Assembly (NCBI RefSeq): GCF_904846415.1 | Contig: NZ_CAJHAR010000001.1 | Location: forward strand, 124,001-188,000 | DNA length: 64,000 nucleotides | Reading direction: 5' to 3' | From: Psychrobacter piscatorii | Lineage (GTDB): Bacteria; Pseudomonadota; Gammaproteobacteria; Pseudomonadales; Moraxellaceae | Shown: positions 56,445-59,269 of the stretch, piece by piece | Layout: every line of letters begins with the position of its first letter | Numbering within the stretch: the first letter of the stretch is position 1 | Made by a program: the position numbers and the translations under genes | The notes under the pieces: model-generated | The model's input: only the letters and a program-made list of their open reading frames with translations | Told to the model about the DNA's origin: nothing | The model's database searches: none

Positions 56445-57002
56445 ATGAATAATGACACGATTACCAAGAGTCAGCTCGCCGCTTATAAGCCGACTACCGC
56501 TTACGTGGGCACGTCTTGGGCCGTTATGTTGGTCGGTGTCCTTGCGTATTTACTGGGACTATGGAATGCTCAAAGTATGTTGTTAAATGAGAAGGGCTAT
56601 TATATCGCGGTACTGGCGCTTGGTCTGTACTCGGCCATCAGTCTACAAAAAACGCTACGTGATCGTAGTGAGGGTATTCCAACGACCAATATGTACTACT
56701 TCATTAGCTGGGCTGCGCTTGGTTTGTCCATTGCGCTTATCGCCCTTGGTCTTATGAATGCAGGCAGTCTCAGCCTGAGCGAAAAAGGGTTTTATATGAT
56801 GGCGTTTACCATGAGTTTGTTTGCTGCGGTCACCATTCAAAAAAACACCCGTGATGAAGCGCAGATTCGAACCCTAACAGCATCATCAACTGGCATTGAT
56901 AACGACAGTAGCGCGAAAATTTCTCATCAAACGCCACGCGAGCCTGAGGCTGGCAAGTCATTGTTTGGTGCGGTTAAGTCAAGAATGGAGAGTGGTGAAT
57001 AA
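56445..57002 (+). CDS. YiaA/YiaB family inner-membrane protein
   Basis: From ATG 56445 (185 aa, GAGGAT upstream) the protein has two repeats of a two-helix unit: segments near 21-37 and 47-63, then 82-100 and 110-125. Each repeat has the pattern LLNEKGYYIAVLALGLYSAISLQK or SLSEKGFYMMAFTMSLFAAVT, split for length, and is typical of YiaA/YiaB. The C-terminal 45 residues are soluble. Function unknown. Confidence 0.82.
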   Translation: MNNDTITKSQLAAYKPTTAYVGTSWAVMLVGVLAYLLGLWNAQSMLLNEKGYYIAVLALGLYSAISLQKTLRDRSEGIPTTNMYYFISWAALGLSIALIALGLMNAGSLSLSEKGFYMMAFTMSLFAAVTIQKNTRDEAQIRTLTASSTGIDNDSSAKISHQTPREPEAGKSLFGAVKSRMESGE

Positions 57003-57027
57003 AGGCTATTTGGCGATAAATCACCTA

Positions 57028-57197
57028 GGGCGTGTCATCATTTAGATAGCGAGGCTTAAAATGAGATAAATTGCAGTCAAACAAGGAAAAAATTGCAGAG
57101 AAAATAGGTATATTCGCAAAATTTTTGACGATGTTTAACAAGATTTAGCCAGTTTAAGACCGCTAAATGATTTAATGGGCTAATTGATGACACGCCC
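57028..57197. mobile_element. 170-bp MITE-like element with TA target duplication
   Basis: GGGCGTGTCATCA at 57028-57040 has its exact complement at 57185-57197, with further near-matching inward (one mismatch, then TTAG). TA lies on both outer sides (57026-57027 and 57198-57199). There is no ORF within. Inverted ends and a TA duplication are those of Tc1/mariner-IS630-type miniature elements. The right end supplies the last base of the mnmC stop codon. Confidence 0.75.
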
Positions 57198-59269
57198 TAA
57201 GTCAATGGCGTCTGTAGACGTGTACGCTGCGGCGATAGACGTGCAAGCATCGCTGTTGATAGCGGCGCAAATGATCCTAGCATCATACCTGCTAATGCTT
57301 CAGCACAGATGGGTGCCAACGCATAGCCTTTTGCGCCCATCGCACTCATGGTCCATATACGCTGACTGTTGGTTAGTTGCCCAACGATGGGATGATAGTC
57401 AGGCGTTTGGGTGCGAATACCAGCGCGCCCTTGCCACAAGCTCGTATCGACCGGCACGACGGTTTCCATCTCAGGAATGGCAGTAACGAGCTTGTCTCGG
57501 CTGATTTGATGTTCCTCATCTCTTATATCAGTATCGGTATCATTACGAATAAAACTTGCACCAAGTAACAAATACGGCTCGCCCGCAACCAACGTATTTA
57601 GATCATCATCACCTGTCTGTGCGTTAAATAGCGCACAGTAACCGCTATATTTAAGTGGTATTTTGGGTAGATGTGCGAGTTGTTCTACATCAGGTGTAAA
57701 CCAAGACAGCTGCCCACGAATCTTACGGCAATCAAATATCCGCTTATCCAATTGATGACTCTCAAACGCGGCGCAAATGACGACATTATCGGCAAAGACA
57801 GAAACCATTTCCTTATGTTGATTACTGCCCTCAATAAACACCTGAGCGTCAGTTTCATTGATTTTATCAACGTTTAATTGCTGAAAGCGAATGAGCGGGT
57901 GCGCTAGTATGATGTCTTTCAATGCTTGCGGGTTGACCAAACCAGACTCAGGCAGGTATAAATTCTCTGATAAGTCTTGTGCTTGCAACCCACTAATATT
58001 TTGTGCCTGTTCAACGGGTAGGGTAGTCGCCATCTCATCAGGGTATTCGGTAATTTGCTCGGTGCCAATATTGGCTTTTATCAGTAAATCAAGCGCACCA
58101 GTCGGTTCAAGTATTGGCGCTGTATTGAGCTTTATGGCTTTTTGATTAAGGTCTCGATATAGCCTGCTGCTATAGAGATAGCCGATGGTGTGCAAATGCT
58201 CGTCAACGTGGTGAATAGGCGTCATTTTGGGCGCAAGCAAGGCTCGAGGGTTGCCTGAAGCCCCTGCTAAAGGCGCTGATTTATCCAATAAGGTCACGGT
58301 AATCCCGCGATTGGCAAGCGACCAAGCCGTTAGCAATCCTGAGACGCCTGCACCAATGATGGCAGTGTGATTAAAGGTGCTATCTGTTGTTATCTGCTTC
58401 GCATCGTGGCTTTCGTTATCACAACTTTTATTATCACTAGTAACGTCAATATGGTCTGTATCGGTCATGATGGCGGTGAGCATTTCTCGCTTGCGACCAA
58501 ACCCTTTTACCTTTTTGATGTCAAAGCCATGTTCCTTGAGCCCGCGCTTGACGATGCCTGCACAGCTATAAGTAGCGGCGGTCGTATGCGTATGCGATAG
58601 GCGCTGCATCTGTGCAAAGATACTGTCAGCCCACAATGTACTGTTGCAAGACGGCGCAAAGCCATCCAAAAACCACGCATTGATATGAGGCTGAGGCGCA
58701 GACTGCTGAGGGTGACCTATTGCCAGTTTGCTAAGACTCTGGGCTGCATCACCAAGCCATATATCGACCGTCAGATTATCATAAGAGAAATCCAAACGAT
58801 GACAGCCTGCGATAAGAGGCGGATACGCTGCCAAAAGTGGCTCAATCAACGTTACAAGCTCAGGCGCACGTTGACCCCATAGGGCAAGTATGTGCGTCAG
58901 ATCTGCAAGTGGTATGGGAAATTTTTCAGTGGTAATGAAATGTAGGCGAGCATCTGCCAGTTGTGGGTGGGTGTCGCGCAGCTGTCGCCATAACTGCCAC
59001 GTCGCTAAGAGGTTAAGCCCAGTACCAAAACCCAATTCCGCAATCGTAAAACATTGCTGTGGTGCAAGGCGCATTAAGCGATCAGGCAGCTGATTGTGCT
59101 CTAAAAACACATGACGTGTCTCTGCCAGGCCATCCGCATGCGAGAAGTACACATCCCCAAACTCACCGGATACTGGCACCATATTGCCAGTATCATCCAT
59201 TTGCCAGTCAACCTTAGCAGGTGTGATAATCTTTAATGGTTCAGCGTTTGTGTGATGAGCGATAGACAT
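57197..59269 (-). CDS. mnmC: bifunctional tRNA mnm5s2U synthesis protein MnmC
   Basis: MnmC completes 5-methylaminomethyl-2-thiouridine at the tRNA wobble position. The 690-residue protein has the N-terminal methyltransferase ([25 protein letters not shown]) and the C-terminal FAD oxidase, with the dinucleotide motif [17 protein letters not shown] near residue 310 and the end block [17 protein letters not shown]. The stop TAG is formed at the boundary of a MITE; the pre-insertion sequence would also have read TAG, so the protein is unaltered. Confidence 0.94.

Follow-up and report, generated by a model that had tools for sequence, protein, structure and literature searches.

A MITE with IS5-family ends occupies the mnmC stop codon of Psychrobacter piscatorii and leaves the protein end unchanged

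Within the 64,000-nucleotide stretch of Psychrobacter piscatorii DNA analyzed here (the window), a short inverted-repeat element lies in the stop codon of mnmC. We consider it very probable that this element represents a genus-wide family of MITEs, that an IS5-family transposase of the IS427 group (ISPssp5-type) moved it in trans, and that it entered a YTAR target in the mnmC stop. Features readable in the DNA itself comprise the ends of the element, its target and duplication, an insertion sequence sharing those ends, further copies, element-free gaps in relatives and an unchanged protein end; from sequence we infer mobilization in trans and near-neutrality for both mnmC and its neighbor yiaA. 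In the proposed mechanism, an IS5-family transposase would recognize ends of 17-19 bp, insert into YTAR and duplicate the central TA. Since the target in the window would have been the mnmC stop, MnmC would remain unchanged, and both convergent transcripts, if they reach that far, would gain a long hairpin in their 3' regions.

The element itself is non-autonomous, spans 170 bp (57028-57197) and contains no open reading frame of 80 or more amino acids. As the earlier note had described, it is flanked by TA on either side (57026-57027 and 57198-57199), where the empty target reads C-TA-A on the plus strand and T-TA-G on the mnmC strand, and the right TA read on the minus strand is that of the mnmC stop codon. 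The left terminal inverted repeat, GGGCGTGTCATCATTTA (57028-57044, plus strand), is identical to the IS5-family end at 16 of 17 positions, and the right one, GGGCGTGTCATCAATTA (57181-57197, minus strand), equals both the ends of a resident IS5-family element and the published right inverted repeat of ISPssp5. The terminal inverted ends measure 17 bp, and the inverted arms that include them (57023-57045 and 57180-57202) are 91% complementary. A 13-bp end sequence, GGGCGTGTCATCA, has two exact occurrences in the window, one per strand, and these are the two ends of the element. DNA folding of 57026-57201 gives a z-score of -6.8, with an equally good fold in none of 200 shuffles. The interior also holds an imperfect 19-nt direct repeat (79%; 57068-57086 and 57090-57108). 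Being no longer than a few hundred base pairs, non-coding, bounded by terminal inverted repeats, present in dispersed TA-flanked copies and sharing its ends with a resident insertion sequence, the element belongs to a known kind, the MITE with IS5-family ends, which is common in the genus.

Inspection of the surrounding genes places the element between convergent neighbors, as the earlier note also held. To the left, a gene for a yiaA-like inner membrane protein (56445-57002, plus strand; NCBIfam and Pfam matches) ends 23 bp before the left TA. To the right, mnmC (57197-59269, minus strand) forms a 690-amino-acid open frame for the bifunctional tRNA (mnm5s2U34) enzyme. This identification comes from NCBIfam and Pfam, where the match to the full-length MnmC equivalog model reaches 503 bits, below its cut-off of 540, and both domain models score above theirs. 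The third base of the mnmC TAG stop (57197-57199, minus strand) is the first G of the element. When the flanks are rejoined over a single TA, the mnmC strand reads CCA TTG ACT TAG GTG ATT, so that TAG stands with or without the element, which agrees with the proposal that insertion took place inside the stop codon and that the first G of the element remade it. The predicted empty site on the mnmC strand would read ACT TAG (or ACT TAA), followed by GTGATTTATCG.

We read the 3' end of mnmC in all 104 of the 105 genus genomes with a match, the window included. The stop is TAA in 61, TAG in 25 and TGA in 18, and 68 of the frames stop at the aligned residue at which the window's frame stops, with 98 ending no more than three residues away. 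Since homologues share this end or nearly so, truncation of mnmC by the insertion was rejected, and the claim of an unchanged MnmC protein holds. A convergent yiaA lies near mnmC in at least 36 of the 104 genomes, the window's included, given that the stretches read differ in length. The expectation of an empty site in relatives was borne out in part: in the other 35 convergent mnmC-yiaA gaps no pair of element ends was found with one mismatch allowed, making these element-free orthologous gaps, but the exact predicted sequence, TAG GTG, was not found in the relatives' mnmC ends shown, where the stop is TAA, TGA or TAG and the intergenic stretch has diverged. On the basis of the far flank, therefore, the stop before insertion was probably TAG.

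A detected element occupies the mnmC stop in 2 of the 104 genomes, the window included, and 102 lack one. The second case, in genome G007, carries another end type (CCTCA) in a different flank and reads CTT GCA GAC TAG; by sequence, the two are independent insertions in different species. In two further genomes (G033 and G014) an element starts 28 bp beyond the first base of the mnmC stop, with the full end-pair seen for G014. In 12 genomes (G023, G047, G048, G052, G056, G057, G059, G063, G065, G069, G084 and G094) a family member lies on the 5' side of the gene; its distance to the 3' end of the mnmC match is 9.8-9.9 kb, and it is probably one old inherited insertion. It is not among the blastn matches in the window's own genome.

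The likely parent was sought among transposons with the same ends. An 841-bp element on contig C24 of the same genome (L038, 404-1244) carries TAGGGCGTGTCATCAATTA at both ends; it shares the 17-19 bp ends and TA duplication of the MITE and contains two overlapping transposase frames. The upstream frame of the resident copy (L021) scores above the curated cut-off of NF033580, the model for IS5 family transposases, as does the downstream frame, which was scored on a copy from another genome (L276); the upstream frames of these two copies are 90% identical. The right end of the window element equals the right end of the 841-bp element over 21 of 21 bp. Like an ISPssp5-type derivative, the window element combines the inverted repeat GGGCGTGTCATCAATTA with a TA duplication, with one mismatch in its left end, and likeness to ISPssp5 is what suggests the IS427 group. 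Comparison of the element body with four copies of the insertion sequence yields significant alignment for the ends only (up to 21 bp), and the element is therefore filed as an end-sharing MITE and not as a simple deletion derivative. An origin of the body by internal deletion of the insertion sequence was tried and set aside on the same four copies, in which the alignment is limited to the ends.

The earlier note had expected an IS630-type parent with the same ends. A parent of the IS630/Tc1-mariner type, in the manner of Correia or RUP elements, would account for the TA duplication, and the genome does hold DDE_3 (IS630-like) transposase sequences, with five matches. Correia elements, RUP and ERIC have a TA target, a folded structure and IS630-type parents, and their ends and parents differ from those of the window element. 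The exact MITE ends, however, are found on an IS5-family element of the same genome and on the published ISPssp5, and the sole DDE_3 copy read among the five, on contig C65, begins TATACCAAACCC at the one end located, unlike the MITE ends, and seems to be inserted within what is left of an IS5-family element. We accordingly rejected an IS630 parent, which we regard as extremely improbable. The apparently interrupted IS5-family remnant lies on C65 at L047 2568-3100, where the DDE_3 element has a different start.

Several IS5-type lineages with distinct but related ends occur in the genus: GGGCGTGTCCTCA/CCCTA, GGGCGTGTTGAACA and others (L390-L393; L378, L384 and L388 types), and the GGGCGTGTCCTCA/CCCTA ends match end variants of the MITE. 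Elements of 843-848 bp with CCTCA/CCCTA ends (L390-L393), one L390 frame of which scores against NF033580, would by their sequence serve the CCTCA sub-family of MITEs. Some genomes hold MITEs and have no match to this transposase, for example G004 with six copies and G006 with three. In the window's own genome, nine contig ends (on C4, C7, C21, C22, C24, C35, C40, C42 and C51) fall 123-127 bp inside an element copy with IS5-family ends; a multi-copy insertion sequence with these ends seems to break the draft assembly.

To place the window element in its family, copies were counted in its own genome and across the genus. A blastn search with the element returns 12 matches in its own genome, nine of them of at least 100 bp, and a 14-bp end pattern with one mismatch allowed returns 20 matches against one for the reversed control; this copy number excludes a chance origin. 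Matches extend to 90 of the 105 genus genomes, which bears out the other copies that the earlier note had called for, and a search for exact, correctly spaced end-pairs gave 666, spread over 73 of the 105 (reversed control, 0). Insertion sites differ across genomes, and these sequence differences imply past mobility. The element had no match in a plasmid collection, and in a wider search of the class its ATC-type end appeared in one of 369 genomes, the window's own. Among the literature matches listed, from a search that reached few subscription papers, no paper names this MITE.

For closer comparison we collected copies from the best blastn loci, 30 end-pair loci, some copies of the own genome, loci outside the genus and the 75 end-pair places listed for ten genomes (for G012, 14 of its 21), a collection that is not a random sample and for which the collecting patterns demanded TA at both ends. 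Removal of 11 copies with identical flanks reduced 162 copies to 151, which form 132 insertion clusters and include 23 out-of-genus copies. We dropped copies whose flank on one side or the other was shorter than 400 bp, among them 4 of 27 out-of-genus loci; in one of the four (L173) a 217-codon open frame runs up to the TAG of the element, and the other three have no open frame of 20 or more codons on their readable sides. A body related to the window element over at least 80 bp is present in 127 of the 151 collected copies and in 127 of the 128 from within the genus, where 113 of 128 are intergenic. The commonest continuations after GGGCGTGTC are CTCA, ATCA, TTCA and CCTA, and the continuation type is identical at both ends in 111 of 127 copies.

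The target conforms to YTAR in 142 of the 151 unique copies (CTAA 73, CTAG 52, TTAA 17). Because YTAR includes a TAA or TAG triplet on either strand and the elements begin 5'-GGG, a TAA or TAG stop whose TA is hit will always read TAG afterwards. To assess how often stops are hit, copies were set against the remaining YTAR sites of their flanks, matched by tetranucleotide; a single member represented each shared insertion (132 clusters), and genes were called by a simple open-reading-frame rule of 80 amino acids. Within the genus, 4 of 103 YTAR copies lie inside genes against 72.5 expected, and 10 of 99 non-genic copies fall on stops against 7.7 expected (z 0.87; with a 120-amino-acid gene cut-off, 10 of 99 against 6.1, z 1.64). 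Stop-codon targeting within the genus is therefore not supported by these counts. The rate of stop landings is the one to be expected from the target rule combined with avoidance of genes.

A first pooled test with the groups unsplit had given an odds ratio of 1.88 (p 0.018), and splitting by group traces this excess to the out-of-genus copies. There, in a sample of few copies in which the excess was noticed post hoc, 9 of 16 non-genic YTAR copies lie on stops, where 1.29 would be expected (with the 120-amino-acid cut-off, 7 of 16 where 1.05 would be expected). These copies come from unrelated bacteria and share the same 15-bp end; in all 23 the best match to the window element covers at most 57 bp, mostly the end alone, and their bodies are therefore taken as different. 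Exact stop-codon insertions number 9 among the 23 (L153, L156, L168, L180, L183, L192, L199, L201 and L204), and by group they amount to 4 of 6 in an alphaproteobacterial metagenome-assembled genome (MAG), 2 of 5 in Xenococcaceae, 1 of 7 in Uabimicrobium, 1 of 1 each in a Legionella MAG and a Comamonadaceae MAG, and 0 of 1 in each of three others. Ten proteins end at out-of-genus elements, each with a Pfam match. At L168 two convergent genes flank the element, and their stops had the target TA in common.

These counts bear on a possible active targeting of stop codons or gene ends by the transposition system, over and above its YTAR preference. The out-of-genus excess, the ten Pfam-matched gene ends and the mnmC stop having been hit twice all point that way. 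Even so, the in-genus figure of 10 against 7.7 shows no such preference, four of the nine out-of-genus stop hits come from a single metagenome-assembled genome and Uabimicrobium contributes one of seven, and purifying selection against insertions in coding sequence would push in the same direction; we judge active targeting quite unlikely. Another proposal, which we offer tentatively and would not favor at present, is that IS5/IS427-type ends combined with YTAR are self-healing, such that stops may serve as harmless pads, and that in some other genomes, across at least five lineages, elements with other bodies may have accumulated there far above expectation.

The body of the element was also analyzed for conserved structure. 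The whole 174-nt stretch 57026-57199 folds into a single imperfect hairpin, and covariation of its pairs extends inward past the terminal repeats. After removal of copies at least 92% identical to a kept one (127 reduced to 38), RNAalifold on the 38 copies gives a hairpin in which one copy or more shows changes to both partners at 16 of 32 pairs, a result well above those of shuffles and slid controls. In a fuller drawn hairpin 96.0% of cells are paired, with 112 double changes against 25.5 in shuffles. For pairs inside the ends only, 14 of 33 show double-sided changes; the cells concerned number 56, compared with 10.3 (sd 2.6) for shuffles and 6-22 for slid controls. In the fuller hairpin and its inner part alike, the structure was fitted to the same alignment and the shuffles ignore kinship. 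Such paired changes could have arisen through selection acting on a hairpin in RNA or DNA, or through repair in which one arm served as template for the other.

The hairpin and its covariation, together with the intergenic placement of 113 of the 128 in-genus copies, would fit an element kept for an RNA role at gene ends, such as processing, stabilizing or shielding convergent transcripts, with its placement at mnmC being functional. Against this, hairpin-templated repair between the arms would also yield paired changes, the fitted structure and kinship among copies temper the contrast with shuffles, no terminator-like site was found in 56900-57400, Rfam gave no meaningful match (best 20.6 bits against a gathering score of 211), and 102 of 104 genus mnmC stops have no detected element. 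A retained RNA function is accordingly an unlikely reading, and a mobile MITE at a YTAR target remains the preferred one.

The element was also compared with described systems. ISPssp5, from the Psychrobacter plasmid pP32BP2, is listed in Table 1 of PMC6514802 as an IS5/IS427 element of 837 bp with right inverted repeat GGGCGTGTCATCAATTA and a TA direct repeat. As described there, it resembles the window element in its 17-bp inverted repeats, in a right repeat equal to the window's right end and in the TA duplication, and it resembles the resident 841-bp element in its length of about 840 bp and two overlapping transposase frames. ISPssp5 is autonomous, whereas the window element is gene-less and its body shares only ends with the IS copies compared, a set that does not include ISPssp5. 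MITEPsy1 of Pseudomonas syringae, as presented in PMC3189936, was tied by its authors to the IS5-family ISPsy2, has the target CTAG or YTAA, close to YTAR, and was observed to transpose; it is likewise an IS5-family-linked MITE, but differs in its length of 100 nt, its 18-nt ends of other sequence and a reported 4-nt duplication. MITEAba12, as reported in PMC6382973, is a short, non-autonomous element of the same bacterial family, Moraxellaceae, and differs in being mostly 113 bp with ISAba12-type ends and a 9-bp duplication. Correia elements, RUP and ERIC are, like the window element, small repeated elements in the account of a review (PMC10969869), according to which RNase III also cleaves transcripts carrying Correia elements.

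Taken on these terms, the insertion at mnmC is a real but largely ordinary event, in that landing on a stop is usual for the family within the genus. Only the excess of stop-codon hits in out-of-genus copies is a surprising lead, in a small, post-hoc sample, and the covarying hairpin comes next. A target and a first base that together restore a stop codon may explain why some mobile elements spread in compact genomes at little cost, and a genus-wide family with a likely parent and a target rule would provide a test set for stop codons as safe landing sites.
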